Positions 11,121-53,476 of a stretch of DNA of 53,476 nucleotides are shown in pieces. This DNA is from a virus. Made by a program: the position numbers and the translations under genes. The stretch covers positions 1 to 53,476 of the IMG/VR virus record IMGVR_UViG_3300017741_000006. One strand, given 5' to 3'. The notes under the pieces are model-generated. The model saw only the letters and a list, made by a program, of their open reading frames with translations, did not search any database and had not been told where the DNA came from. Numbering within the stretch: the first letter of the stretch is position 1; each line of letters starts with the position of its first letter.

Positions 11121-11894
11121 ATGAAAAATTTGGTATTTCAATACTATATTCCATATGAAATGGGCGATAGAGATTTAGGCGGAGTTGATTTACCAGATTG
11201 GGCTCAAGCAGGAAGAAGATCAGCGCAGGCATATGCAAAGTATTGTGGTGCTGAATACGTTTTAGATCATACTAGATATTTTGAAGAATTAGATCCTCGT
11301 CTAGATTCAATAAAAATCATATTTGATCCTAAATATGATGAATACGATCATATCCTTTCTGTTGACTTGGATATGCTTATGCATTCCCAAATAAAAGATA
11401 ATATCTTCAATTTTGATATTGGGGACGTAGCGATGGTGCACGAGCTAGGCGTTCACACTGGAACGCCCAGTGGATGGATGAGAAGAGTAATGGATGCGCC
11501 GCTATATCAAAGAGGAATACTTGCATACGGTAAACATATATTTGGAAAAGATTGGATGTTTCCAAAATCAAAACTTTATCCCGATGAAAGATTTAGATAT
11601 CTAAATGGCGGTTTGCAATTATGGTCACGTGAAGGAAGACAAAAGGCTAGAAAACACTTTACTTCAGTTGATCACTACGTATTGCATACAAGATATACCG
11701 AACAAATGTATATTAACTTACAGCTTTCACAACCAATATTTAACGTTGTAGAATTAGATACATATTGGAATAGAATGCCGTATCAATGGAAAAATAGTAA
11801 ACCTGATGGCAAAATCAATCATTTTCTTGCCCGTACTAAATTTACTATGCCTAAACTTGAAAAAACGGAGATGAGTATATGGGACAATTCCTAG
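11121..11894 (+). CDS. GT-A-fold glycosyltransferase, paralogue A
   Basis: A 257-residue protein starting MKNLVFQYYIP. It has YDHILSVDLDML (metal-binding DxD near residue 83), RYLNGGLQLWSREG (acceptor/nucleotide region) and a late INHFLARTKF with a conserved His. These are features of GT-A-fold transferases that use nucleotide-sugars. It shares its layout with the genes at 12803 and 13481. It is the first gene of the sugar-transfer cassette. Donor and acceptor are unknown. Confidence 0.75.
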   Translation: MKNLVFQYYIPYEMGDRDLGGVDLPDWAQAGRRSAQAYAKYCGAEYVLDHTRYFEELDPRLDSIKIIFDPKYDEYDHILSVDLDMLMHSQIKDNIFNFDIGDVAMVHELGVHTGTPSGWMRRVMDAPLYQRGILAYGKHIFGKDWMFPKSKLYPDERFRYLNGGLQLWSREGRQKARKHFTSVDHYVLHTRYTEQMYINLQLSQPIFNVVELDTYWNRMPYQWKNSKPDGKINHFLARTKFTMPKLEKTEMSIWDNS

Positions 11895-12478
11895 AAATTG
11901 CTGCAGAAAAAACTAGAGGCTTAAATTGGACTTCAGCAAATATTGCATCACATAGCGGTGTCGATAAAGTTGACTTTAGAGATCTTCCTACTAAGTATAA
12001 AGAAAATTCATTTGATGGAATTTACTCAGAACATTTTATTGAACATGTATACAAATATCAAGGGATTAATTATTTTAAAGAATGCTATAGAATTTTAAAG
12101 CCACATGGTACTATTCGTACAGTTTGGCCTCCAAATGAGTTCGTTAATAAGCTAGTTAGTGATGAACCTCTAACCGAACAAGAAGAAAACTTTTGTAAAT
12201 CATATCATCAATTCTATGTTGTTAAGCATAAATTCGCTGCAGCTGGAAATAGTCATAGAAGTATACGTGAGCAATGCGCACTTGGCTTGCTTTATCAAAA
12301 TGGCCAGCATCTTTATCTTTGGGGTATTCAAGAGATGATAGATACTCTTAAATCTTTAGGATTTAAGAATGTAAAACAGCACAAGTATATGGACAGCCGT
12401 GTATTAGAATTCAAAAGCATCGATACTCCCGGTGTAATTCGTGCTTTACACTCTGCAGTTGTTGAAGCTACAAAATGA
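11879..12478 (+). CDS. SAM-dependent methyltransferase-like protein (type 11), short N-terminus
   Basis: A 199-residue protein. FDGIYSEHFIEHV...YFKECYRILKPHGTIRTVWPP matches the second half of the class I methyltransferase fold (motif after strand 4 and the RxLKPGG turn). The usual glycine-rich SAM-binding loop is not evident; the N-terminus has only LNWTSANIASHSG. Such shortened forms are common in sugar-biosynthesis clusters. Start overlaps the previous gene by 16 bases. Possibly methylates a sugar or is a non-catalytic partner. Confidence 0.7.
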   Translation: MGQFLEIAAEKTRGLNWTSANIASHSGVDKVDFRDLPTKYKENSFDGIYSEHFIEHVYKYQGINYFKECYRILKPHGTIRTVWPPNEFVNKLVSDEPLTEQEENFCKSYHQFYVVKHKFAAAGNSHRSIREQCALGLLYQNGQHLYLWGIQEMIDTLKSLGFKNVKQHKYMDSRVLEFKSIDTPGVIRALHSAVVEATK

Positions 12479-12810
12479 AAATTTTACTTAAATTTGATGG
12501 TAGACAGCAGATGTTTCATTACTATTGGCTACCTCTTATATACAAGCATACTGAATGCACATTTTTTGTAGAAGATAAAAGTGGTAAATTGATTACACCT
12601 AATGGAATAAAAAACCTAAAAGTTATATCTAACTTTAAATCATTAAATGTAAATGATGCTAAGCTTTGTTACATAGATGAAATTCCTACTTATAAAACTA
12701 TGGCTAATTTTAATCATAACACTTTTTATAAAGTTTATTCAACGCCGAAGGAAACGCCTATTGGCAAAATCGAAATTGCAAATAAGAAGGGAACTATAGA
12801 CTGTGTCTAA
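12475..12810 (+). CDS. Hypothetical protein in sugar-transfer cassette
   Basis: A 111-residue protein, coupled by ATGA overlap to the methyltransferase gene and ending inside the next gene's start. It begins MKILLKFDGRQQMFHYYWLP and has alternating hydrophobic strands (CTFFVED, LKVISNF, AKLCYIDE). It may be a truncated glycosyltransferase-like Rossmann domain, but no motif supports a firm call. Confidence 0.6.
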   Translation: MKILLKFDGRQQMFHYYWLPLIYKHTECTFFVEDKSGKLITPNGIKNLKVISNFKSLNVNDAKLCYIDEIPTYKTMANFNHNTFYKVYSTPKETPIGKIEIANKKGTIDCV

Positions 12811-13468
12811 GAATATTATTCTACAGCATATGGATGGTAAACTGCGCGAATTAGATAAGCTTTCAGTTGAAAACATGCAAAGATACGCTGAGTTTGTAAA
12901 AGCAGATTATGAATTAATACGTGGTCGCCCTTTTAGAGAGCATTTAACAGGCGCTTGTCAAAAAATTTATATGTTAGACAAAAAATATGATAACTACGAC
13001 CATGTGCTTATGGTTGATATTGATATGTTTGCCAGAAAAGGTATGATGACAAATGTATTTAAAGTACCTGGCATAGGCCTATATGCTGATGTACAAAAGT
13101 CTTTACATCGTAAAATGATACCACACGGCGGAAGCCTTAACCATCCTTACTGGGGTGGAGCAATATATAAAATGAATTTAAAAACTAGGCAAACGCTTAG
13201 AGCCGGCTTAGGTGGTGATGAATCTTGGATGGACAAATTTAACGAAGCATATAAATTTGAAGACGAAGGTATTATGCATATACTTGCTAAGATGTCAAAT
13301 TTTAGACCGGATGAGCCATATATGCATAGGAAATGGTGTCAGTGTTCTTTCTTACCTAATCCTGAAAAAGCGGGATTTATTCATGTTCGAACAAAAATAA
13401 CACCTCAAGGGCCTAAAAGAGAAAAGATCGAGAATTATTATGATCTTACTCTTAAAGGAATAATATAA
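12803..13468 (+). CDS. GT-A-fold glycosyltransferase, paralogue B
   Basis: A 221-residue protein starting at GTG 12803 within the end of the upstream frame. It has YDHVLMVDIDMF (DxD near residue 73), YWGGAIYKMN near 116 and a late GFIHVRTK with His. The order and spacing match paralogues A and C, so the three probably arose by duplication. It has GESWMDKF-like and EDEGIMH segments that could bind acceptor. Confidence 0.75.
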   Translation: MSKNIILQHMDGKLRELDKLSVENMQRYAEFVKADYELIRGRPFREHLTGACQKIYMLDKKYDNYDHVLMVDIDMFARKGMMTNVFKVPGIGLYADVQKSLHRKMIPHGGSLNHPYWGGAIYKMNLKTRQTLRAGLGGDESWMDKFNEAYKFEDEGIMHILAKMSNFRPDEPYMHRKWCQCSFLPNPEKAGFIHVRTKITPQGPKREKIENYYDLTLKGII

Positions 13469-13480
13469 AGGAAACAGATT

Positions 13481-14359
13481 ATGAAAAATATTATATACCA
13501 ATACTGGAAAGGCGATATGAAGCCTGGTGTAGAATACAGCTGTAAGCTTATGAAAGAATATGCCGATCGTATTGGTGCTGAATACAAGTTTGATTTTAAT
13601 AAAACGATTGCTGGTAAAGTAGTTGATGTTCCAATATATTATGAACCTGCCAATCCATTAGTTGATGAATCATTTGATGACTATGATAATGTTATGCTAT
13701 GTGATGTTGATGTTTTTCCAACCGAAGGGTTATCAGATAATATTTTTGATCTATTAGATGGAGAAGATGCTGGTATATGTACGGAACCAAAGCAACCATA
13801 CTTTAGAACAATATACAACTCTGGTGGAATCAATAGTGTAATTGATAAAAAATGGGCTGAGGTTTGTAATAAACGATGGGGTGTAGAATATCCTGTAGAT
13901 GATAAGCAAAGACCTGAAGTATTTAACACAGGAGTTGTTGTTATCTCTAAAGCAGGTCTTAAAAAAATGAAGACTGAATGGCCATCTTTCCAGGAATATG
14001 TAAATGAAGTAAACGGGTTTCCTAAATTCTATAGACTATTTCAAGACTACTTTTCAGCGTTTATTCATTTACCAGGATTTAAATTAAAAAGATTGCCAAA
14101 TGAATGGAATTGTTATATGCATAAGGTAGGCTCTCATCCTAATGCAACTATTGGCGATAATAGACCGGATAATGCTAAATTAGTTCATATTATGTTTCGT
14201 ACTGCTGATGACTGGTCGACTGATGTTCTTTGGAGAATAACAAATAAGCCAATTGCAGAATGGAATTTGCATTTACATAAAGAATGGCCTAATGATCCTC
14301 CTAAACAAGACAATAGTTTATTAAATCAGTTAAAGGATATTAATAATGCTAACAGCTAA
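13481..14359 (+). CDS. GT-A-fold glycosyltransferase, paralogue C
   Basis: A 292-residue protein, the longest of the three relatives. It has YDNVMLCDVDVF (DxD near residue 76), VFNTGVVVISKAG near 147 and LVHIMFRTADDW near 236 with the late His. AAAGGAAACAG precedes the ATG. The FNTGV motif is characteristic of GT8-like enzymes. Substrate unknown. Confidence 0.77.
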   Translation: MKNIIYQYWKGDMKPGVEYSCKLMKEYADRIGAEYKFDFNKTIAGKVVDVPIYYEPANPLVDESFDDYDNVMLCDVDVFPTEGLSDNIFDLLDGEDAGICTEPKQPYFRTIYNSGGINSVIDKKWAEVCNKRWGVEYPVDDKQRPEVFNTGVVVISKAGLKKMKTEWPSFQEYVNEVNGFPKFYRLFQDYFSAFIHLPGFKLKRLPNEWNCYMHKVGSHPNATIGDNRPDNAKLVHIMFRTADDWSTDVLWRITNKPIAEWNLHLHKEWPNDPPKQDNSLLNQLKDINNANS

Positions 14360-14936
14360 AGTAGATAATGTAACATCTGTTGAAGAGTTTTACAGTGAAA
14401 TCAGATCTCAACAAGAAGCCTTTCATGGTGACTACTATTGTGCAATGCATGATTCTATTAGAAAATGTATGAAAGATTGTAGCTCATATAAAGAATTAGG
14501 TACACATCAAGGTGGAAGTGCTGCGGCAGTCATGACAGGTAAGTATAAACCAAAGTATATGGAATTAATTGATATTGATCATGTCAAATATAGAGCTAAA
14601 CTTAAATCATTAGCAGAACCTTATTGTAAAAGCCATGGCATTGAATTAGTAGTTCGTGAAGCAGATTCTGGCAGCTTAAGTTCTATGTCGACAAAAAATG
14701 TTGATATGCTTATGATAGATTCGATTCATAAAAGATATCACATGGAAAAAGAGTTACAGATTCATGGACAAATGGTAAATAAGTATATTGTAGCTCATGA
14801 CACTAGTATTGCGCAGTCAAGTAATTTAGTTGAGTTATATGAATGCTTACGAGACTTTTGTAATAATAATCCATCATGGAATATTATTGAGCGCGGAGTT
14901 GAAAATGTTGGCTACACGGTATTGAAAAAAAATTAA
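14346..14936 (+). CDS. CmcI-like hydroxylase/methyltransferase-fold protein
   Basis: A 196-residue protein. YKELGTHQGGSAAAVM (about 51-66) looks like a SAM-binding loop after strand 1; MELIDIDHVK near 76 matches the acidic end of strand 2; DMLMIDSIHKRYHMEKELQ near 119 resembles the metal/substrate-binding segment of the CmcI/methyltransferase-24 group; YIVAHDTS follows. Such proteins often methylate sugars or accompany them in polysaccharide clusters. Overlaps paralogue C by 14 bases. Confidence 0.7.
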   Translation: MLTAKVDNVTSVEEFYSEIRSQQEAFHGDYYCAMHDSIRKCMKDCSSYKELGTHQGGSAAAVMTGKYKPKYMELIDIDHVKYRAKLKSLAEPYCKSHGIELVVREADSGSLSSMSTKNVDMLMIDSIHKRYHMEKELQIHGQMVNKYIVAHDTSIAQSSNLVELYECLRDFCNNNPSWNIIERGVENVGYTVLKKN

Positions 14937-15632
14937 ATGCTAGCTTCAATAATCACAATTCCAGACCATCCAGTATCTCAGAAAGCTGCTGCCATATGTA
15001 TGGAATCAAGTGAGGTTGTTGGTAATCATTTTAAAATATATCAACATTCAGCTACTACACCTGATGATGTGGACGCAAAGATGAAAGAATATGGTTTAAA
15101 GTGGAATTATCCGTGGGAAGGCACTGTACTTGACTTTGCCACAGGTCTTAAAAAGTCTGCATATAGAACTGCTAACCAGAAGGCCAGGGTTGCATGTAGT
15201 GTGAGCCACTACACCCTGTGGCGATCAACGGCTTCTGGTTCACAGTCACACTTAATATTAGAACATGATTCTAAATTTACATCTAAATTTGATACATCTA
15301 TAATAGATCGTACTAAGTTTTTGATATATGGTATCAACAATCCGATAGGTGCCACGAGAAAAGCTAGAGAGTTTAAAGAACTAGTTTCTAAATCTAATAA
15401 AGAAGTGACATATGTGCCGTGGATTGACGATATGTCTGTTCCTCAAGGTTTAGCCGGAAACTCAGCATATATAATTACACCTGAAGGAGCTAAGAAGATG
15501 CTTAAGCTAGTTGATGAATTTGGATTATGGCCTAATGACGCTATTATGTGCCGACAGCTTATTCCTCAGCTTGGAGTGACTACTAAGTTTTATACTACAG
15601 TTCAAGGTACACCATCAACAACGAGTGATTAA
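14937..15632 (+). CDS. GT25-like glycosyltransferase
   Basis: A 231-residue protein. ASIITIPDHPVSQKAA at the start, ARVACSVSHYTLWRS near 83 and SHLILEHDSKF near 103 (acidic-His-Asp in place of DxD) followed by AYIITPEGAKKML near 180 fit the glycosyltransferase family 25 layout of LPS-modifying enzymes. It begins directly after the upstream stop. It is related to the next gene, so GT25 is also duplicated here. Confidence 0.75.
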   Translation: MLASIITIPDHPVSQKAAAICMESSEVVGNHFKIYQHSATTPDDVDAKMKEYGLKWNYPWEGTVLDFATGLKKSAYRTANQKARVACSVSHYTLWRSTASGSQSHLILEHDSKFTSKFDTSIIDRTKFLIYGINNPIGATRKAREFKELVSKSNKEVTYVPWIDDMSVPQGLAGNSAYIITPEGAKKMLKLVDEFGLWPNDAIMCRQLIPQLGVTTKFYTTVQGTPSTTSD

Positions 15633-15633
15633 A

Positions 15634-16284
15634 ATGAAAGCCTTTGTTATTGCAATTGAAGACCATGCTAAGTCTCAACAAGTAGCAGATAGATGTATTA
15701 AGTCGGCATCACGATTTGATATTAAAGTAAAAAAATGGAAAGCTACTACACCACATGATATGCCAATCGATAAATTATTAACAGAAAATGTTAACATTGC
15801 TGGCTTACATGAAACATATTCTCGCATTGCTAATTGCGCTGCAGCATTTCATTCACATTTTTCTATTTGGAAAAATGTAGTAGAAACTCAAGAAATGCAT
15901 ATGATTTTCGAGCATGACGCAGTTGTCATAAATGATATTCCCAAAACAATTCAATTCGATAAAGTATTATCTATTGGTGCACCATCATATGGTAAGTTTA
16001 ATACACCTAGTGTATTAGGCGTTGGACCACTAGTATCTAAAGGATATTTTCCTGGAGCACATGGTTATCTGATAAAGCCAGAAGGTGCTAAGTTACTAAT
16101 AAAACAGGCACAAGAAATTGCAAGACCTACAGATGTATTCTTAAATAAAAATACATTTCCATGGCTACAGGAATATTATCCATGGCCAGTAGAAGCTCGT
16201 GATAGTTTTACTACTATTCAGAATGTAAATGGTTGTTATGCAAAGCATACTTATGGAGAAGCGTATCGTGTCGAAGAAGTATAA
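15634..16284 (+). CDS. GT25 glycosyltransferase
   Basis: A 216-residue protein if started at ATG 15634; GTG 15625 is an alternative. It has MKAFVIAIEDHAKSQQ, NCAAAFHSHFSIWKNVV near 70, MHMIFEHDAVV near 90 and GAHGYLIKPEGAKLLI near 143, the expected order for GT25 (LPS core galactosyl/glucosyl transferases). It ends within the start of the next gene. The target could be host LPS, a virion glycan, or another acceptor. Confidence 0.78.
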   Translation: MKAFVIAIEDHAKSQQVADRCIKSASRFDIKVKKWKATTPHDMPIDKLLTENVNIAGLHETYSRIANCAAAFHSHFSIWKNVVETQEMHMIFEHDAVVINDIPKTIQFDKVLSIGAPSYGKFNTPSVLGVGPLVSKGYFPGAHGYLIKPEGAKLLIKQAQEIARPTDVFLNKNTFPWLQEYYPWPVEARDSFTTIQNVNGCYAKHTYGEAYRVEEV

Positions 16285-16915
16285 CCAAGCATTCTTAACT
16301 GGCTGCGATGAAAATAATGCCTGGATGCTTCCATGGTTTGTGGAAAACTATAAGAAACATAATTCAACTCCTTTAGTTTTTGCTAATTTTGGTGTAAGTC
16401 AAAACACATTAAAATATATAAAAAATAATTTTCATGCTGTTATTGATATGAGTAAAACAAAAGAAAGAGGCTGGTTTAAAAAGCCAAGAGCGATGTTATA
16501 CTCACCTTCGATTAAGACTGTATGGCTTGATACTGATTGTCAAATTTGTGATAATATTGAATCAGTATTTAATTTACTTAAACCTAATAAGCTAGCAATG
16601 GTTGAAGATAAGCCATGGACAAAACGGCGGCAAGAAGTATGGCACAATTCAGGCGTAGTGGGAATTATAGATAAGCCTATAATACTTCATCAATGGTGTC
16701 AAGAAGTGCACGATAACCCGAACGTAGGTGATCAAGAAGTGTTACATAATATGCTTAATCCTATTACAAAGTTAAGTCATATCGAAGATTTACCAAACGA
16801 ATATAATGTCCTTCGGATACAAGTTGAGTTAGATGGATATACAGGTAAAAAGAAGATTGTACATTGGACTGGAGCTAAAGGTAAGGATAAGATTAGGAGT
16901 ATGATGAATGTCTAA
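16268..16915 (+). CDS. GT-A-fold glycosyltransferase, fourth type
   Basis: A 215-residue protein. GTG 16268 is chosen because GGAG at 16255-16258 lies nine bases upstream and the protein then starts SKKYNQAFLTGCDEN; an upstream ATG at 16229 is less likely. It has IKTVWLDTDCQI (DxD near residue 87), WHNSGVVGI, GDQEVLHNM and a late IVHWTGAKGK, the classic pattern of GT8-like enzymes. It is not a close copy of paralogues A-C. Confidence 0.77.
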   Translation: MSKKYNQAFLTGCDENNAWMLPWFVENYKKHNSTPLVFANFGVSQNTLKYIKNNFHAVIDMSKTKERGWFKKPRAMLYSPSIKTVWLDTDCQICDNIESVFNLLKPNKLAMVEDKPWTKRRQEVWHNSGVVGIIDKPIILHQWCQEVHDNPNVGDQEVLHNMLNPITKLSHIEDLPNEYNVLRIQVELDGYTGKKKIVHWTGAKGKDKIRSMMNV

Positions 16916-17516
16916 AGTTGTGCACATTGTTGGTAATGGTGATCAGGCCGTTTTATATCAGAAAGCCGAAAGAAAAGGCCTAAAGATATGCTGTAATCTT
17001 CCACCCTTTGCTGTGCCTAACACATATGCATCGGTTATTGTGGACTTTAAATTTATGAAAGCAATGACTGAAGGTAGTATTGTATTGCCTGGTGATTGGA
17101 TTCTAGGAATGCGTCCTAAGATTTGGATGGATAAGCATCCTAACTACTACACAAAAGTAGCACATCAAGTAAAAGAATTTTATACTCCTCTTCCTAAATA
17201 TGCTGGTAACTATACTAACTTTAACTGTGGTCATGTTGCCGTACATTATGCAGCAAGTAAGCTAAAGGCAGATAGGATTCACATGTATGGATTTGATTCT
17301 ATCTTTGACTTTAACCTTAGAAGCTATTCAGACCTGGTACTTAATTCTGACAGAGAGAATATGAATAATCATAGACTGTCTAGTAATTGGAGACCAATTT
17401 GGACAGCGATGTTTAAGGAGTTTGAGAATACGGAATTTATTCTTCATCATGTACACGGTGACTTTAAGATTCCTATTTCAAAAAACGTAAGAGCACAAAT
17501 TTATCCTAAAAAGTAA
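16908..17516 (+). CDS. Rossmann-like protein of marine phages, possible sugar-modifying enzyme
   Basis: A 202-residue protein with an N-terminal VHIVGNGDQAVLYQ (Rossmann-like glycine turn) and NCGHVAVHYAASKLKADRIHMYGFDSIFD in the centre, reminiscent of DUF115/sialyltransferase-like proteins. It is the last gene of the cassette, overlapping the upstream one by eight bases. I cannot assign a reaction. Confidence 0.65.
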   Translation: MSKVVHIVGNGDQAVLYQKAERKGLKICCNLPPFAVPNTYASVIVDFKFMKAMTEGSIVLPGDWILGMRPKIWMDKHPNYYTKVAHQVKEFYTPLPKYAGNYTNFNCGHVAVHYAASKLKADRIHMYGFDSIFDFNLRSYSDLVLNSDRENMNNHRLSSNWRPIWTAMFKEFENTEFILHHVHGDFKIPISKNVRAQIYPKK

Positions 17517-43819: not shown

Positions 43820-46800
43820 ATGGCAACTACGATCACCAGTTCAACCTTTCCTAATACCTATAAGGATGATTACTTAGATAGTGATAATTATCATAAGATC
43901 CTCTTTAATAGTGGTGTTGCTCTTCAAGCAAGAGAATTAACGCAGCTACAGACTATTATCCAAAATCAAATTAAAAGATTTGGTGATAATATCTTTTTGG
44001 AAGGTGCTGTCGTAAAACCAGGTGGTGCAAACTTAAACTCTAAGTATGAGTTTATTAAGCTGAACACTAGTGTCTATAGTCTTCCTGGAACACCATCTAG
44101 TCTCGTAGGTACATCATTTACTGGCCAATCGTCAGGTGTTGTTGCAAAGGTTTTAGAAGTAGTAGCGGCTGCGGGTTCAGACCCTGCTACACTGTATGTA
44201 CAATATACTTCTACACTTGCCTCAGCATCAACAACTTCTGATCCTATTCGTATGAATGCCGGTGAAACAATGGATAATGGTAGTACGACCTTAGTTGTAC
44301 AAACTACAAATACTATAGATGATCCAGCGACCGGTACTGGTTCCCGTTTTTCTATTGGTGAAGGTATTTACTATGCAAATGGTAATTTTATATTCGTTGA
44401 AACGCAATCAAAAATAATTTCGAAATACTCAGATGCACCAAATGCTGAGTGTGGGTTTAAGATTATTGAAGAAGTTGTGACGACAGCTGACGATACTGCA
44501 CTATTTGATAATCAAGGTGTTACGCCAAACCTGTCAGCACCTGGTGCTGATCGTTATCGTATTCGTCTTCAAATTGCCACAAAAGCAGAAATTGCTTCTG
44601 ATGAAAATTTTGTACACGTTGCAAATATCGTAGATGGTCGTATTCAGTCTGCAGTCAAGACAATTGATTCTTATAATGTGCCTAATGAATTAATTGCAAA
44701 AAGAATATCTGAAAATTCAGGCGATTACATAGTAGAACCATTTACAATTAATTTCGAAACCGACTCTGCAACTGGATTTTTAAATCTTAAAATTTCTGAC
44801 GGCATAGCGGTTGTTGAAGGATATAGAGCCGCAAAATATACCCCTACAAGTCTTAGAGTTGAAAAGGCTACAACAACAACTACAATTAATAACGACGTAA
44901 CAGCAGCTAATTATGGTAATTATGTGTTAGTAGACCCAGCCGAAGTCAAAGGCCTTCCTAACATTAATGAACTTGAGTTAGTAAATCTTAGAACAGTTGC
45001 TGATTATGGAGGATCTACTATTGGTACCGCTCGAGTGAGAGGTGTAGCTGAAGACGGAGCAAACTATAGATATTACCTCTTTGATATTGTAATGAATACT
45101 GGTCAAGCATTTAGAGATGTTAAAAGTCTTGGTACCACTAGTACAAACTATTTTAATCCTACGCTTGAGTTAGGTAAAGCTGTACTTAAAGAAACCGGAA
45201 GTACGGTTCTTTTCCCGCTTCCTCATGATAGACCTAGCACTATTGCAGATATTTCTTTAGTAACCCAGCGAAGATTCACCACTACTACTAATAGCTCTGG
45301 ACAAACAACAATTACAGTTTCAGCCAGTGGTGAAGATTTTACGAATACCGGAGATTGGGTATTTGCTAAAGCAAATGACGCAATTATTACTACTTCAGTT
45401 AGTGTAACTGGTGCTGGTACACAATCTGCTACAATCAGCGGATTACCTGCTAGTGTTACAAACTTAGAAATATTGGCTTATGTTAATAAAGGCAATGGCA
45501 TTGTTAGAGCTAAAACATTGACCGATATGTCTAGATCTATTACACCTGATGCAAGTGGAAATCTTCCTTTAGGTAAAGCTGACATTTATAGTATTACGGA
45601 AATTGTAGATGATGCCGATAGCTCAATTGACTATTCTGGTAGGTATTCACTTGACAGAGGACAAAGAGATAATTTTTATGCTTTAGGTAAGTTAGCATTA
45701 AACGGCGGTATGACAGCGCCGAGTGGATCAGTTCATGTTAAATACAAGTATTTTGAGCATGGTGTTAACGGAGATTTCTTTGCAGTTAATTCTTATACTG
45801 GTCAAGTAGAATACGGTGATATTCCTTCACACACTTTATCAAATGGAAGAACTGTTAATTTAAGATCTGTATTAGATTTTAGATCTGTACAAGACTCTGA
45901 TGGTAATTATTCCGGAATATCAACTGGAGGAAGAGTAGTAGAATTACCGCAGCCTTCAGACTTAATTAGATTTGATGGTACATATTATCAATCTTCATCT
46001 GCGCGGCTGGTAATTGATACTGAAGGAGTCATTCAATACATTAAAGGACCCACAGGATTTAATCCTTCATTACCAGAAAAGCCAGAAAGAACTTTAGGAC
46101 TATATAATATTACTCTAAATCCTAATACTATTAGTCCAAGAGATGTTAATATTAATAAGGTTGAAAACAAACGATTTACAATGGCTGATATCGCACGACT
46201 TGAAGATCGAGTTGATAAGATTGAAGAACTTACATCACTTAGTTTACTAGAATTAGATACAAATAATTTCGAAGTACTTGATTCGGCTGGAGTTAACAGA
46301 ACTAAGTCTGGCGTTGTTGTAGATAATTTCTCTACACAAGCTTTGTCTGATACTAGATCAAGAGAATATAGAGCATCAATTAATCCTTTGCGACAGATAA
46401 TGCGCCCTTGGTTTTATGAAGATAATATTAAATTAATGTATGATTCAGATGCTTCTACAAATACAATTAAGAAAGGTGATAATATATATCTTAAATATAC
46501 TGATGAAGTTTATATGGATCAAAGCTTAGCTAGTCAATCTGTTGTTATTAATCCGTTTCAAGTGGTAGTTCATGAAGGCATAATTACACTTTCTCCTGGC
46601 ACTGATGAATGGAGAGACACTGAATATATTGCAAATAAAATTATTGACGGTGGCTCTAAATTAGACACTAATCAGGCATTACTTTGGGATAATTGGACAT
46701 GGAATTGGGGCGGCACTCCTATTGAAGAATTAAAGGTAGGATCTACAACAAACTCTAAAGTTACTAATAGCGGTAATGTAACAACTACAGTAGTAAATAA

Positions 46801-47560
46801 GGTGGTGTCAGATGAAGTTGTACAAAAACTCGTAGGTGAACGGGTGATAAATGTTGCACTATTACCATTTATGAGATCTCGTAAAATTTTCTTCAAGGCT
46901 GAAGGCTTAAGACCTAACTCAAAGGTATTTGCATTTTTTGATGGACAACCAGTTGCAAGTTGGGTAAGAACCGAATCATTTACATATCATTCAGATAATG
47001 CAGTTGATTATGGCAACTTACACAGGAATGCTACTGGGCATCCTGAAACAGCAAGTACTCTTGAAACTGATGCCAACGGAATGGTTGAAGGATCGTTCTT
47101 TATTCCTCGAGGTCCAACTCTTAGCTTTAAAACAGGCACTAGAGAATTTAAGATTTTAGACATAAGTGTACCTAATGATAATGATTCATTAAGTATTGCT
47201 CGAGCGCTTTATTCATCAGTAGGTCACTTAGATACAAAACAAAAAGATTATTTATCAACAAGAATGTTAACAGTCGAAGGCACCAGCTCTACTATTCACA
47301 GACCTTATTACAGTAGCGGTGACGGTAAGTCTCATTACATAGATCCAGCTGGAAATCGTCATTTTGCTACATTACAAGACTGGATAAATGCCATGAATTC
47401 CCCGGGGCATCAGCCAGTAAGCGATCCACACCATGACTTTGCCGTTTCTCCAAATAGCAACATTAATGTAGGTACTGGTGGTATGACAGATGCTGAAAGA
47501 GACGCTATGGCAGGAAATTTCAATTCTTATTCTGGGGGTCATCACCCCACCGCGCGCTAA
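43820..47560 (+). CDS. DUF4815-type virion protein (giant baseplate/fibre component)
   Basis: A 1246-residue protein, the longest in the window. The N-terminus (DDYLDSDNYHKILFNSGVALQARELTQLQTIIQNQIKRFGDNIFLEGAVVKPGG) is the DUF4815 signature common in marine T4-like phages. A TGQSSGVVAKVL module lies near 96-153. Further on NISLVTQRRFTTTT and KYKYFEHG lie in beta-rich segments; the C-terminus is hydrophilic with HHPTAR. It follows gp8 where T4 has gp9 and gp10, so a fibre-holding role is plausible but unproven. Confidence 0.8.
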   Translation: MATTITSSTFPNTYKDDYLDSDNYHKILFNSGVALQARELTQLQTIIQNQIKRFGDNIFLEGAVVKPGGANLNSKYEFIKLNTSVYSLPGTPSSLVGTSFTGQSSGVVAKVLEVVAAAGSDPATLYVQYTSTLASASTTSDPIRMNAGETMDNGSTTLVVQTTNTIDDPATGTGSRFSIGEGIYYANGNFIFVETQSKIISKYSDAPNAECGFKIIEEVVTTADDTALFDNQGVTPNLSAPGADRYRIRLQIATKAEIASDENFVHVANIVDGRIQSAVKTIDSYNVPNELIAKRISENSGDYIVEPFTINFETDSATGFLNLKISDGIAVVEGYRAAKYTPTSLRVEKATTTTTINNDVTAANYGNYVLVDPAEVKGLPNINELELVNLRTVADYGGSTIGTARVRGVAEDGANYRYYLFDIVMNTGQAFRDVKSLGTTSTNYFNPTLELGKAVLKETGSTVLFPLPHDRPSTIADISLVTQRRFTTTTNSSGQTTITVSASGEDFTNTGDWVFAKANDAIITTSVSVTGAGTQSATISGLPASVTNLEILAYVNKGNGIVRAKTLTDMSRSITPDASGNLPLGKADIYSITEIVDDADSSIDYSGRYSLDRGQRDNFYALGKLALNGGMTAPSGSVHVKYKYFEHGVNGDFFAVNSYTGQVEYGDIPSHTLSNGRTVNLRSVLDFRSVQDSDGNYSGISTGGRVVELPQPSDLIRFDGTYYQSSSARLVIDTEGVIQYIKGPTGFNPSLPEKPERTLGLYNITLNPNTISPRDVNINKVENKRFTMADIARLEDRVDKIEELTSLSLLELDTNNFEVLDSAGVNRTKSGVVVDNFSTQALSDTRSREYRASINPLRQIMRPWFYEDNIKLMYDSDASTNTIKKGDNIYLKYTDEVYMDQSLASQSVVINPFQVVVHEGIITLSPGTDEWRDTEYIANKIIDGGSKLDTNQALLWDNWTWNWGGTPIEELKVGSTTNSKVTNSGNVTTTVVNKVVSDEVVQKLVGERVINVALLPFMRSRKIFFKAEGLRPNSKVFAFFDGQPVASWVRTESFTYHSDNAVDYGNLHRNATGHPETASTLETDANGMVEGSFFIPRGPTLSFKTGTREFKILDISVPNDNDSLSIARALYSSVGHLDTKQKDYLSTRMLTVEGTSSTIHRPYYSSGDGKSHYIDPAGNRHFATLQDWINAMNSPGHQPVSDPHHDFAVSPNSNINVGTGGMTDAERDAMAGNFNSYSGGHHPTAR

Positions 47561-47572
47561 GGAGCCTTAATA

Positions 47573-49141
47573 ATGGCAACCTCATTAGGTTACAAACTAA
47601 ATAAACATCCAATTGCACAATCGTTTTTTGTGGATAAAATATCTGGTATATACGTTACAAAAATTGATTTGTTTTTTGCGCAAAAAGATGTAGATTTTCC
47701 AGTTACTTTACAGCTAAGGCCGATGGATAATGGATATCCTTCAGCTACAGAAATTATTCCGGGATCACAAGTAGTAACTGCCGGATCAAGTGTCAACACT
47801 TCTACCGATGCTACATCTGCTACTACGTTTACTTTTCCTGAGCCAGTATACTTAAAAGGCCTAACAGATTATGCTATAGTATTGACTGCAGATTCAATTG
47901 ATTATGAAGTTTACATTGCTCAAACAAATGAATTCTTAGTAGGATCTACTGAAAAAAGAGTAGATCGCCAACCCACATCCGGATCATTGTTTTATTCTCA
48001 AAATAATGTTACCTTTACTGCTGCACAAAACCAAGATTTAACATTCAAAATACATAAAGCTAAATTCTTACATTCAACTGGAACTGCGGTTCTTAATAAT
48101 GCAGATGTACCTAGGTATTTACTGACTGAAAACGCTTTGACATTTACTCAAGGCAGCAGTACCGTAAGAGTAAAACACGTTAATTGTGGCTTACATGTAG
48201 GAGAAGACATTACTATTGCAGGTGTAGATTCGGGTGGATTTGCCGGTATTGATGAATCACATTTAAATGGTACTCACACAGTTACTGCTGTTGATTGGAC
48301 TGGTTATTCGTTTACTGCAGGTGCTACAGCTACGGCAACGGCTGATGCAGGAAATAATGCAATTACTGCCACTACAAATATTCCATATACCATTATTTAT
48401 CCTCATGTGCAAACTCTCATGCCTAATAATACATCTATTAGCGCTGGCTTAAAGGCAACAACAGGTAAATCATTTGCTGGAACAGAGACTGCGTTTCAAA
48501 AAAGCGCATCATTTGCGAATGTTCAATTAAATTCAAATAATTTAGCAGCTGTGCCATATGTAGTTGCTAATGCTGGAAGTGAGGCATCAGAGTTAGGGTC
48601 TAATCAAAAATCATTAGATCTTTCCCTTAATATGTCTTCATCAGATAGTAACGTTTCTCCTATGATTGACATGCAGAGAGTATCAGCAACTCTTGTTAAT
48701 AATCTTGTAGATAGACCAGCTTCAGCAGCCACATCTGGATTTAATTCACAATTTAATTTTGTTGATGAAACTTCTGCTTCAGGCGGATCGGCGGCCGCGA
48801 AGCACGTTTCTACACCTGTTACTTTACAACAAGATGCCGTGGGTCTTAAGATCATCTTAACTGCAAATAGACCATCAACGACAGACTTTCAAGTTTATTA
48901 TAGAACAGCTACAGATGATCAAAATTTGTATGAGCAAGATTATAGTTTGTTATTAGAGGAAACAAATAATCCTACTGATGAGTCTCCGAGAATATTTAGA
49001 GAATATCGATATCTTGCTGGTGGGCTTGGTGGAGACTTACTAGCCTTTACTCAATTCCAAACTAAGATTGTACTTAGATCTACAAATGCTGCTAAAGTTC
49101 CAGTTATAAAAGATTTAAGAGCAATCGCGATGAGCGTATAA
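47573..49141 (+). CDS. Virion structural protein, 522 residues
   Basis: It begins MATSLGYKLNKHPIAQSFFVDKISGIYVTKIDLFFAQKD, then LQLRPMDNGYPSATEIIPGS and LKGLTDYAIVLTADSIDYEVYIAQ, a block that in other phages is fused to DUF4815 proteins. The middle is Ala/Thr-rich beta and the C-terminus (QTKIVLRSTNAAKVPVIKDLRAIAMSV) resembles a structural domain that closes a sandwich. It is translated right behind the 1246-residue protein and probably binds it. Confidence 0.78.
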   Translation: MATSLGYKLNKHPIAQSFFVDKISGIYVTKIDLFFAQKDVDFPVTLQLRPMDNGYPSATEIIPGSQVVTAGSSVNTSTDATSATTFTFPEPVYLKGLTDYAIVLTADSIDYEVYIAQTNEFLVGSTEKRVDRQPTSGSLFYSQNNVTFTAAQNQDLTFKIHKAKFLHSTGTAVLNNADVPRYLLTENALTFTQGSSTVRVKHVNCGLHVGEDITIAGVDSGGFAGIDESHLNGTHTVTAVDWTGYSFTAGATATATADAGNNAITATTNIPYTIIYPHVQTLMPNNTSISAGLKATTGKSFAGTETAFQKSASFANVQLNSNNLAAVPYVVANAGSEASELGSNQKSLDLSLNMSSSDSNVSPMIDMQRVSATLVNNLVDRPASAATSGFNSQFNFVDETSASGGSAAAKHVSTPVTLQQDAVGLKIILTANRPSTTDFQVYYRTATDDQNLYEQDYSLLLEETNNPTDESPRIFREYRYLAGGLGGDLLAFTQFQTKIVLRSTNAAKVPVIKDLRAIAMSV

Positions 49142-50056: not shown

Positions 50057-50983
50057 ATGGCAGTTAGAACTCCGCTTTATCTTGATGGCACTGATTTAAA
50101 GGAAATGTCTTCTAGTATGATCTCGAATATTAAATCGAGGTGTGTATACATGTATGGAGCCAATCCTTCAGTAGATATAGCTGTAGTAGGATCTGGTGGT
50201 AACATTTCTCCAAACATGACTGATACTCGAACTCAAGCAGGCGCTGCTGGATCAAGTTATTCTAATTTTTCGTTTAGCATAGCTGGTGTGTCTACTGTTA
50301 CAGTTAATTATGATAGAATTACACAGAATGTTGAATCAGTATCTCAAGATAACGACACAAATAATATAAGAAACTTTATTTACCAAAGTAGTGGTAACTT
50401 ATATGCTATGTCTCATACTGATATGTATGACACTTTTTATAATGATGTACTTAATACCATTGTAGATGGCTCTGATAGACCTGGTACATATAGAGTTGCA
50501 ACTTCTACTTCTCAAAGTAACATGACTCTTATGTCAAGTACACCTGTTTTTCAAGATACTCGAGCAAACACGGGGGCATACACTTCAGGAGGAATTCCCG
50601 AAACTTTAGATCAGCCTACTACTATTGCAAATTATTACGTGCATAGAGTTAATCAAAGTATTATGTCAAATCCTAGTATTACTGCTCCAATGTATATTAG
50701 ATCAGACGGAAATATCCAGCAATATACTGACAGTCAAATAAATACTATATTACAAAATGACATTAGATATTGGGGAAACCAAAAGATTAGATATAGTGTA
50801 AATGGCACAGGTAACAACAGAGGATCTGGTATGTCAAATACTAAATTAAATAGTAGCACTAGATCAAATAGACAAGATGGTACAACAGGGTACCCATCTA
50901 CTCAATATAGATCTCAACAGTTCCCTTCTGGTAGCGCAGTTACTAATAATACTTATTATTTACGAATTTATAGGAATTCATAA
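50057..50983 (+). CDS. Virion structural protein, 308 residues
   Basis: VRTPLYLDGTDLKEMSSSMISNIKSRCVYMYGANPSVDIAVV begins a beta-rich protein with Asn/Ser/Thr repeats and a C-terminal TQYRSQQFPSGSAVTNNTYYLRIYRNS. Related proteins occur at the end of baseplate/fibre operons in marine T4-like phages and are found in virions. Five bases after the previous stop. The exact part of the particle is unknown. Confidence 0.75.
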   Translation: MAVRTPLYLDGTDLKEMSSSMISNIKSRCVYMYGANPSVDIAVVGSGGNISPNMTDTRTQAGAAGSSYSNFSFSIAGVSTVTVNYDRITQNVESVSQDNDTNNIRNFIYQSSGNLYAMSHTDMYDTFYNDVLNTIVDGSDRPGTYRVATSTSQSNMTLMSSTPVFQDTRANTGAYTSGGIPETLDQPTTIANYYVHRVNQSIMSNPSITAPMYIRSDGNIQQYTDSQINTILQNDIRYWGNQKIRYSVNGTGNNRGSGMSNTKLNSSTRSNRQDGTTGYPSTQYRSQQFPSGSAVTNNTYYLRIYRNS

Positions 50984-50984
50984 A

Positions 50985-51476
50985 ATGCAAGGACACAAAT
51001 TTTTAAATGCTTATTTTACTGATGAAGAAAGAACTACAGTTGAGTCGTTGTGGGAAGAAGAGTCTACAGGAACAGTAAGAGCTGAAATAATCGAATGTAA
51101 AGAAGGTGATGTTGCTTGGGAAGATCTTCTGACTCATGTGGATATTGACACCCTACATGAGATGACATTCAAGCGAATCAGAGCTCTTGATAATGAATAC
51201 AAAGATCAAGTTATAGCCATTGCGAAAGAACGTGGAATGGTTTATGATATTGATTCAGTTAACACTGATGTCTACAAGGCGATCGCTGCTACACTGTTTG
51301 CATCTTTTGACCCTACTGAAGATAAAGAAAAGTTGTTCATGTTTAAGCTACAGTTATTTGAAGTTGAACAGATTCGGGACTCAAAAGATAAAGAAGGAAA
51401 GAAAAAGATTAGACAAGCTAAAACAATGTTAACAGCTTGCCAGGCAGCAATCAGTGTTTATCAAGGAAATACTTAG
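50985..51476 (+). CDS. Conserved hypothetical at the end of the baseplate operon
   Basis: A 163-residue protein from ATG 50985 (MQGHKFLNAYFTDEERTTVE). The frame opens earlier but only inside the previous gene. It is acidic and helical, with EMTFKRIRALDNEYKDQVIAIAKERGMVYDIDS in the centre and KIRQAKTMLTACQAAISVY at the end. Its last 26 bases overlap the 3' end of the opposing glycosyltransferase gene. Function unknown; an assembly or chaperone role is possible. Confidence 0.72.
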   Translation: MQGHKFLNAYFTDEERTTVESLWEEESTGTVRAEIIECKEGDVAWEDLLTHVDIDTLHEMTFKRIRALDNEYKDQVIAIAKERGMVYDIDSVNTDVYKAIAATLFASFDPTEDKEKLFMFKLQLFEVEQIRDSKDKEGKKKIRQAKTMLTACQAAISVYQGNT

Positions 51477-52008
51477 TCCACCATCCTTCTTGCTGCATAA
51501 ACTCATATCTTTGATTAAACAGATAAACCTCATACTCTTGCTCTTCTTGGATTGTTTGATAAGAACAAAATCCATTACTATATGTTAATGGCTGAAACAA
51601 TTCATACAGGTATTGATCTATTCCAAGATTATAAATGAGCATATACTTATCTGGATTGTATTTAAACTTATCATAGATGTGTGAGTAATCTCCATTCCAA
51701 GATATGATACTTGAATTAAGAGGTGTGTGGTATGGTTTCCTCCACCACGCATGACATACTGTCAGTTCATTTCTCATAAACTGATTACAATCTCCTTTAA
51801 TTAGAACATCCAAATCAAAATAAATGTTTTGGCCATCTCTAAACTTGTCAAACATTAACAACTTGTCATAGACCCCTCCATACTCTTCTTGGTCTATGAC
51901 TTCAAATGAAGTATAGTTTAGCTGAGAATAATTATCAATCATATGCTTTAAGTTATCGGTATACCACTGACTATACTTGTCACCTGTATTAACGCACACT
52001 ACTCTCAT
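51451..52008 (-). CDS. Small GT-A-fold glycosyltransferase
   Basis: A 185-residue protein from ATG 52008 (MRVVCVNTGDKYSQWYTDNL), which overlaps the upstream stop (ATGA). DKLLMFDKFRDGQNIYFDLDVLIKGD has the DxD near residue 70; ELTVCHAWWRKPYHTPLNSSIISWN contains the usual NSSI acceptor region. The frame opens to 52068 but that part is inside the neighbour. It is the last gene of a minus-strand unit with a radical SAM protein. Confidence 0.72.
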   Translation of the reverse strand: MRVVCVNTGDKYSQWYTDNLKHMIDNYSQLNYTSFEVIDQEEYGGVYDKLLMFDKFRDGQNIYFDLDVLIKGDCNQFMRNELTVCHAWWRKPYHTPLNSSIISWNGDYSHIYDKFKYNPDKYMLIYNLGIDQYLYELFQPLTYSNGFCSYQTIQEEQEYEVYLFNQRYEFMQQEGWWTKYFLDKH

Positions 52009-52427
52009 AATAAACACACATTTTTGGCAAAAGATCTTTTTCTTTCGTCTATAGAGGAATGATAACAATCATTCAAATCAATGAAATAAATATCTTTTGA
52101 ATCTTGACATCTAATAAAATTGTATCTGTCATAATTGTTGATAGTGAACCTATCTTCTCTCATAACACACAAAGGCCATACAATAGATTCCATTTCTAAA
52201 TTTGATATAGGAAGACCTTTGATAAAGACAGATTCATACCATATAATATTATCGTTTAGTTCAAAATTGAAGTCTGGTATAATTATATCACCAAAAGTAT
52301 CTTTTTTCTGTTGAAGTTCTTTCAAATTTTTATTAGCAAAATGCGCTAACTCATCATTTCTGTATTCAATAACTTTTTTGATGGTAAATGACACTATCAT
52401 TGTTTTTTGTTTATTTGTGTAGTACAT
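52005..52427 (-). CDS. Unknown protein between radical SAM and glycosyltransferase genes
   Basis: A 140-residue protein; ATG 52400 nine codons in is an alternative start just after the radical SAM stop. NDNIIWYESVFIKGLPISNLEMESIVWPLCVMREDRFTINNYDRYNFIRCQDSKDIYFIDLNDCY has a faint look of a small kinase-like or nucleotide-binding fold (…NFIRC…FIDLND), but I see no complete motif and make no call. Coupled to the glycosyltransferase. Confidence 0.6.
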   Translation of the reverse strand: MYYTNKQKTMIVSFTIKKVIEYRNDELAHFANKNLKELQQKKDTFGDIIIPDFNFELNDNIIWYESVFIKGLPISNLEMESIVWPLCVMREDRFTINNYDRYNFIRCQDSKDIYFIDLNDCYHSSIDERKRSFAKNVCLL

Positions 52428-53476
52428 CTATAAAATCTTGCCACATAGGCCGCCAATCTAAGTTTCTATACAACGATAGTTTATCACAATAAGCCATGAA
52501 GTCACTCAAAGGTCTAACAGGATCTCTTACAAGTTCAGCTACAATATAAGGATGTTGTTCACTATACATCTCAACGTATTTTTGTTTTAGATGATCAGGT
52601 AAATTTCTTATACTTAAATATTTTGGACCTCTTACAATATTATCAAAATCTATACGAGATCTCAAGTTAAATTTATTCATGTAATATTTTCTTATTTCAA
52701 ACACATCAGCAATGTTTAGAAGAGAGATAGTACAGTCTAACTTAAATTCTATCTTAGGATAGTATTCTGAAATTTCTGCTAGGTTGTTTTCAAATTGACT
52801 AACATCAATGGGATATCTCATATAGCTTAGTTTATCTTGATAGTGATCTACAGAAACACCTAAATGAAATATTTTAAACTTTTCAGCTAAATCTAAAATA
52901 CTTTTATTTTTATAACGTATTTCAGTAAGATTTGTTGATTGTCCCACTGTTATATTTTTAGCGTGCTCATCTGGTATGCGTTCAAGTAACTCCCAATACT
53001 TAGGAAGCTGTAAAGTCTCTCCTCCCATCATTTGAAATTTAGAAACTAGATGAATATTTTCTATTAAATGATCGACATATTTATGCCAGTCGCTGTATTT
53101 TACATTAACATTTGCAATTTGATCTAGTTCACCTCCAATAAATCTTTTATAATTATCATCATTTGTATACGGAAATATTTTTGATAATTCTTGTTGTCTA
53201 GTAGTTGAGTTATATGGATGACACATATAACAAGATAAGTTGCAGTAGTTTCCAAGATATCTGACTTTAATTGTGACTTTTCCTACTTCAGGATCATATC
53301 CATGTTTTCCAAATGATTTAATCCGATACGAAGTACCTGAAGCCTCTTCCATCTGATAACAAGTAGCACAAGCAGGAATTTTTTCTCCTTCAAACATTTT
53401 TTGTCTTATATCTTCCATCTCATCAGATAAGAAATATTCAAACGGCAAAGTTTTATCTTCTTTAAATCTAATCATA
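52411..53476 (-). CDS. Radical SAM protein, N-terminally cut by the window
   Basis: The frame is open to the window edge; 354 residues are visible. LGNYCNLSCYMCHP near residue 74 carries C-x3-C-x2-C for the SAM-binding 4Fe-4S cluster. FQMMGGETLQLPKYWELL and GVSVDHYQDKLSYMRYP are the following radical SAM strands. The visible N-terminus (EMEDIRQKMFEGEKIPACATCYQMEEASGTSYR) is normally the end of an upstream cysteine-containing domain of phage twitch-type radical SAM proteins, so the true start probably lies outside. Substrate unknown; peptide or sugar-related modification is possible. Confidence 0.82.
   Translation of the reverse strand, partial: MIRFKEDKTLPFEYFLSDEMEDIRQKMFEGEKIPACATCYQMEEASGTSYRIKSFGKHGYDPEVGKVTIKVRYLGNYCNLSCYMCHPYNSTTRQQELSKIFPYTNDDNYKRFIGGELDQIANVNVKYSDWHKYVDHLIENIHLVSKFQMMGGETLQLPKYWELLERIPDEHAKNITVGQSTNLTEIRYKNKSILDLAEKFKIFHLGVSVDHYQDKLSYMRYPIDVSQFENNLAEISEYYPKIEFKLDCTISLLNIADVFEIRKYYMNKFNLRSRIDFDNIVRGPKYLSIRNLPDHLKQKYVEMYSEQHPYIVAELVRDPVRPLSDFMAYCDKLSLYRNLDWRPMWQDFIDVLHK

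Follow-up and report, generated by a model that had tools for sequence, protein, structure and literature searches.

Three genes at one end of a viral sequence of 53,476 nucleotides (the window, meaning the whole stretch of DNA analysed) are read against a T4-type baseplate and tail operon, and the question raised by this locus is what they make and on what they act. The original prediction saw in them a coupled unit for a radical SAM protein, a small protein and a GT-A glycosyltransferase, which would modify a peptide, a glycan or tRNA. We addressed this question by revising the gene layout, assigning families and folds to the three products and comparing the unit with related loci.

Three overlapping genes oppose the baseplate operon

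The minus-strand open reading frames occupy positions 53475-52411, 52427-52005 and 52068/52008-51451, opposed to the baseplate/tail operon on the plus strand. The features discussed here, with the evidence for each, are the following:

52411..53475, minus strand: radical SAM gene, 5' end cut (NF033640, Pfam Radical_SAM, alignment)
52005..52400, minus strand: gene for a predicted mini-kinase-like protein, 131 aa, with a longer frame to 52427 possible (AlphaFold, PDB fold matches, 15-member family)
51451..52008, minus strand: compact GT-A glycosyltransferase, 185 aa, FDLD (AlphaFold, PDB fold matches, DxD invariance)
50877..51476, plus strand: gene of family c1, last of the structural operon and convergent (adjoins the glycosyltransferase in relatives)
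43820..49141, plus strand: split VrlC-like protein (1246 + 522 aa), which marks the boundary of the host recognition cluster (DUF4815, phrog_358, homology to Mosig VrlC)

The radical SAM frame is cut by the window end, which at 53,476 is also the end of the record; 354 residues are readable, and about 40 N-terminal residues, where relatives and the NF033640 profile place further cysteines, lie outside the window. For the middle gene, the ATG at 52427 would give 140 residues and a 17 bp overlap with the radical SAM gene, but the most likely start is the internal ATG at 52400, giving 131 residues, because relatives align from there. The glycosyltransferase gene starts at ATG 52008 (185 residues) and not at TTG 52068, so that its start overlaps the stop of the middle gene by 4 bp (ATGA), an overlap repeated in the related loci L017 and L019. 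Its 3' end overlaps the convergent c1 gene by 26 bp (51451-51476), and the true start of c1 is probably near 50984, since starting it at the listed 50877 would make it overlap with the gene before it. The plus-strand operon ends with the split VrlC-like protein, a small virion protein, a tail-fibre-like protein and two unknown genes; the VrlC-like protein matches DUF4815 and phrog_358 and is homologous to VrlC of the cultured Pelagibacter phage Mosig EXVC030M. Neither a promoter excess nor a terminator-like site was seen in the region.

Relatives of the radical SAM protein are mostly 40-64% identical and those of the glycosyltransferase 40-70%, near full length and with invariant motifs, a conservation that excludes chance reading frames. 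The three genes originally predicted are real and tightly coupled, with corrected starts. The suspicion that the unit continues outside the window is also very probably right, as the radical SAM gene itself is cut at the edge and a close relative (L003) carries further genes upstream.

The outer genes encode an N-twitch radical SAM protein and a divergent GT-A glycosyltransferase

The radical SAM protein could be placed in a subgroup, NCBIfam NF033640 (N-twitch), with an E-value of 8.5e-68 and 229 bits against a cut-off of 170, matching profile positions 41-375 of 398; Pfam Radical_SAM is also matched (E 2.7e-8). The C-x3-C-x2-C site read from the window is indeed complete: it corresponds to CNLSCYMC (CxxxCxxC) at residues 78-85, and C78, C82 and C85 are invariant in 16 aligned sequences, all of which match NF033640. 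Also shared are the motif GGE and another pair of cysteines, which reads CATC in the window protein, while the first cysteines of the N-terminal twitch lie beyond the window here and are present in the relatives, whose full-length forms have about 370-420 residues. PDB searches with the sequence or its profile gave no usable match and no solved relative. Some relatives (L002 and L011-L013) stand outside the island context described below.

The last gene had been called a GT-A transferase, and both its fold model and its motif bear this out. The AlphaFold model (pLDDT 96, pTM 0.92) has a GT-A fold and matches 141 PDB chains with E-values below 1e-3 (best 1.6e-5), among them GlyE, LgtC, glycogenin and the PBCV-1 capsid glycosyltransferase, the best matches being GT8 enzymes. 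The DxD-type motif FDLD occupies residues 64-67, with D65 and D67 invariant in 31 sequences. None of the 31 members of this family matches Pfam Glyco_transf_8, for which the terminal glycosyltransferase is too divergent, and PDB searches with its sequence or profile returned no usable match. A match to a poxvirus Bcl-2-like family (E 0.013) was judged to be due to chance.

The middle gene encodes a predicted minimal kinase-like protein

Searched as a single sequence, the middle protein retrieved nothing from Pfam, PHROGs, NCBIfam or viral contigs, PDB searches with its sequence or profile gave no usable match, and a match to phrog_8646 (E 0.11) was judged to be chance. The earlier description of this protein as lacking a clear match thus holds for sequence families but not for structure: a confident AlphaFold model (pLDDT 92, pTM 0.83) points to a clear kinase-like fold, and each of its 50 best PDB fold matches is a kinase fold, including COQ8A, ASK1, Bud32 of KEOPS, APH(2'')-IVa and lanthipeptide synthetases. 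Foldseek E-values are individually modest (best 4.7e-3), and the assignment draws on the unanimity of the matches and on conserved residues, not on any single E-value. A profile of the middle protein and its relatives at the same operon position (L017/L043 and L019) found 14 viral loci, and the family has 15 members; scanning again with the enlarged alignment brought in no further contigs.

The predicted order of elements is the K9 strand, a long helix, two strands, IKG, a helix, the N94 loop, two short strands and D108, which, mapped by eye, follows a kinase from beta3 to DFG with IKG as a hinge-like segment. K9 and I60-K61-G62 are invariant in 15 of 15 rows, and N94 and D108 in every one of the 14 rows that extend so far. 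The likeness to COQ8A, Bud32/KEOPS and aminoglycoside phosphotransferase therefore consists of the order from the beta3 Lys to the DFG-like Asp, with the Lys, the catalytic-loop Asn and the Asp kept. In contrast to the protein-kinase-like fold, the 131-residue protein is without the strands of the Gly-rich loop and most of the C-lobe, and the position of the HRD Asp, which holds Asn in the window protein, varies among N, D, T and G across the family, with a residue other than Asp in the majority.

The nearest viral structure is a 141-residue uncharacterised protein of S-TIP37, a cultured T7-like Synechococcus phage. Its gene (L116 5004-5429) lies directly after tail-fibre genes and overlaps a downstream 2OG-Fe(II) oxygenase gene. 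Longer relatives are found in T4-like replication modules between regA and an Hsp20 gene (L107 6078-6794, also L105, L108 and L111), where they share a C-terminal extension and reach about 238 residues (L107). The family is not confined to the radical SAM/glycosyltransferase operon and is optional in it. We tentatively propose that the middle gene represents a new viral family: kinase-fold proteins of about 130 residues, perhaps among the smallest such folds, in which the ATP/Mg residues Lys, Asn and Asp would have been kept while the Gly-rich loop, and in most cases the catalytic Asp, would have disappeared; its members might act as nucleotide-binding partners or non-canonical transferases in radical SAM/glycosyltransferase operons, with longer forms beside the translation repressor gene regA. 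The role of a 131-residue kinase fold without the catalytic Asp is a clear target for biochemistry.

Related loci hold variable runs of sugar enzymes in a fixed slot

To describe the neighbourhood, the reading frames of the fetched loci were clustered, with only those of at least 50 residues mapped. The loci were gathered through the window glycosyltransferase, so the fractions below describe loci carrying this gene and not all viruses; the family forms 50 clusters at 95% identity, 46 of which have at least 3 kb upstream and were used for the content of the run. In the relatives the glycosyltransferase occupies a fixed slot beside the tail/baseplate operon, and the c1 gene lies convergent and downstream of it in 34 of 48 distinct loci, always overlapping. 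Phage C48C1 has a gene annotated as a tail assembly chaperone at this slot, but c1 is not similar to it, which rules out that identity for c1; nor does any C48C1 protein score above the N-twitch radical SAM cut-off.

One or more radical SAM genes share an unbroken same-strand run with the glycosyltransferase in 36 of the 46 distinct loci, and the cluster to which the window's own radical SAM protein belongs (c13) is in this run in 12. Two further families are about as frequent, c2 (36/46), which is homologous to the terminal glycosyltransferase (hhalign probability 97, E 2.7e-11), and c3 (35/46), 7 of whose 23 members match Glyco_transf_8. Pfam also places a carbamoyltransferase, nitroreductases and further radical SAM proteins in the runs; PP-loop proteins are weakly matched, one family resembling QueC weakly (E 0.006), and families like DegT aminotransferases and methyltransferases were judged from sequence and from the Mosig annotation. 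Gene content varies strongly among loci, and the middle-gene cluster is in the run in only 2 of the other 46 distinct loci, which makes the exact three-gene set rare. The close relative L003 has the overlapping order c3, c3, radical SAM, glycosyltransferase. Throughout the window part of the unit and ten relatives the genes overlap and leave no room for a precursor peptide among mapped frames of at least 50 residues. No gene for sugar-nucleotide synthesis is visible in the short part of the unit within the window.

A search of genome contigs returned only two contigs from metagenome-assembled genomes (MAGs), with the same phage gene order, and one distant Mesorhizobium protein, and because these matches are so few the reaction cannot be inferred from cellular context. 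The two contigs (L117 and L118) were deposited under Gammaproteobacteria and Muricauda but are probably viral sequences that binning placed among bacteria, and L118 has the middle gene together with radical SAM and c2 genes. Additionally, the window holds at 11121-17516 a second run of about ten plus-strand genes of 110-290 residues plus a methyltransferase-like gene. Several contain DxD-like glycosyltransferase motifs (SVDLDML, MVDIDMF, LCDVDVF, WLDTDCQ) and one (13481-14359) matches the c3 glycosyltransferase family (E 3.9e-7); this run is probably a second glycan cluster.

Several members of the runs are fused to one another. A radical SAM protein joined to a carbamoyltransferase was found at six loci, some near-identical, the radical SAM part belonging to c14, a sister cluster of the window's c13. 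A SPASM-only domain (c20) is fused to a c2 glycosyltransferase at three loci (L008 and L010/L042), a c12 radical SAM protein is fused to c20 in L019, and a PP-loop protein is fused to a radical SAM protein in L035-L037, which are apparently copies of one sequence. By tying radical SAM and SPASM domains to sugar transfer and carbamoylation, the fusions are the main reason for choosing a glycan over a peptide or tRNA.

As to their architecture, the proteins at L077, L084, L090 and L094 have about 960 residues and join a twitch-type radical SAM domain to a NodU-like carbamoyltransferase, and SPASM plus glycosyltransferase-like fusions lie at L010 8924-9982 and L008 11669-12796. At other loci the SPASM domain has a small gene of its own next to that of a short radical SAM protein, a split radical SAM/SPASM arrangement.

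The unit is best read as a glycan operon

We favour, with a probability of about 0.6, a phage operon for making or altering a glycan, placed where the host recognition cluster of a marine T4-like myovirus (pelagimyophage/cyanomyophage type) borders the baseplate genes. Besides the fusions, this preference comes from the GT8-type and other glycosyltransferases, the carbamoyltransferase and the aminotransferase in the same operons, and from the lack of room for a precursor peptide. A modification system was therefore a sound initial reading, and its choice among peptide, glycan and tRNA narrows to glycan. Counting against this are the rarity of the exact three-gene set, the incomplete state of its radical SAM gene, the relatives that stand outside the island context, the lack of a visible sugar-nucleotide synthesis gene in the short window part, and the fact that a substrate is known for none of these enzymes.

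In the mechanism that we envisage, the three genes would form one translationally coupled operon acting during infection, which by analogy with L003 (GT8-like, GT8-like, radical SAM, glycosyltransferase) would probably begin beyond the window with one or two more glycosyltransferases, the mini-kinase being inserted into that order. The N-twitch enzyme would generate a 5'-deoxyadenosyl radical at the CxxxCxxC cluster, assisted by an auxiliary Fe-S cluster in its N-terminal domain, and would act on a sugar, candidate reactions being dehydrogenation, epimerisation and deoxygenation, which radical SAM enzymes carry out in aminoglycoside pathways. GT-A enzymes would then move sugars onto a glycan of the host surface or of virion proteins, and the 131-residue kinase-like protein would bind a nucleotide and phosphorylate a sugar or tune a partner enzyme. 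We infer the glycan product, the action of the radical SAM enzyme on a sugar and nucleotide binding by the mini-kinase from this context. The acceptor may be the host surface or the virion, and the latter stays in play because the glycosyltransferase resembles the PBCV-1 capsid enzyme and has tail-fibre genes as neighbours.

Were the three proteins to act on a peptide or virion protein, in a RiPP-like or tail-fibre side-chain chemistry, glycosylation would be only one of the marks. Peptides are frequent substrates of twitch and SPASM radical SAM enzymes, the radical SAM proteins cross-match peptide-modifying families weakly, the middle protein has lanthipeptide synthetases among its fold matches and tail-fibre genes adjoin the unit; however, the overlapping genes leave a precursor no space, RRE and PqqD were not matched in the Pfam search and the partner genes are mostly sugar enzymes, and we consider this reading unlikely. 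It is likewise improbable that a hypervariable slot has simply gathered unrelated auxiliary genes with no common pathway: the variable content and a middle gene that is optional and also lies elsewhere (beside regA, and in S-TIP37) would fit such cargo, but the joint presence of overlapping radical SAM and glycosyltransferase genes in most distinct loci and the recurrent fusions between members do not.

T4-type phages can glucosylate DNA, and one PP-loop family of the islands is weakly QueC-like, so we also weighed a nucleic-acid target, with DNA glycosylated as protection from host nucleases or tRNA edited by the radical SAM enzyme. We rate this as very improbable, given that the glycosyltransferase resembles GT8/LgtC/glycogenin-type enzymes, that no tRNA-modification radical SAM family was over the cut-off in Pfam and NCBIfam searches, and that the genes lie in the tail/host-recognition slot; moreover, passages of the pelagimyophage study discussed below report a restriction-modification system in only 1 of more than 100 SAR11 genomes (PMC7029224).

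Comparison with known systems

At the level of single proteins, the radical SAM enzyme resembles NF033640 in its over-cut-off match, its CxxxCxxC site and the further conserved cysteines of its family; it differs in that its N-terminal part is absent from the window, and we found no member of NF033640 with a known reaction. The terminal glycosyltransferase shares the GT-A fold and the invariant FDLD with LgtC, GlyE, glycogenin and the PBCV-1 enzyme (2p72), which is near it in size and gives the match most balanced in length (TM 0.68/0.62), whereas identity to the PDB matches is only 10-14% and no Pfam glycosyltransferase family is reached.

At the level of the locus, the closest known system is the host recognition cluster of pelagimyophages, which the relevant sections of Zaragoza-Solas et al. 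2020 (PMC7029224) place between VrlC and gp14 and describe as containing GT8 glycosyltransferases together with cassettes of radical SAM genes, the host O-chain being the target that the authors favour. The slot by VrlC beside tail/baseplate genes, the GT8-type glycosyltransferases and the radical SAM genes are common to both. However, those sections do not name the mini-kinase, the N-twitch family, the split or fused SPASM or the conserved terminal glycosyltransferase, and just the edge of the island falls within the window, with the VrlC side inside and the gp14 side, visible in Mosig, beyond it. Elsewhere, 12 radical SAM genes have been reported from one environmental T4-like genome (PMC5332604), and a study of viromes from the Tasman Sea noted both radical SAM and glycosyltransferase genes among the leading auxiliary genes (PMC7150976). 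The fusions and the fixed operon slot now tie both kinds of gene to one pathway.

Mosig carries its island in the same slot, with a terminal glycosyltransferase 41% identical to that of the window, the c3 and c2 glycosyltransferase-like families and radical SAM proteins. That island is longer, with a carbamoyltransferase, an aminotransferase and nitroreductases, and has neither the window's radical SAM family nor a mini-kinase; outside it no gene is annotated as MoaA-like or radical SAM in the genome, except for short stretches near 50-52 and 89-91 kb that this statement does not cover. The window unit is thus a partial member of a known hypervariable island type and not a free-standing new system, and what is new is the mini-kinase family and the evidence from fusions. 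Since both Mosig and its SAR11 host are in culture, that phage allows a direct test of the glycan hypothesis.
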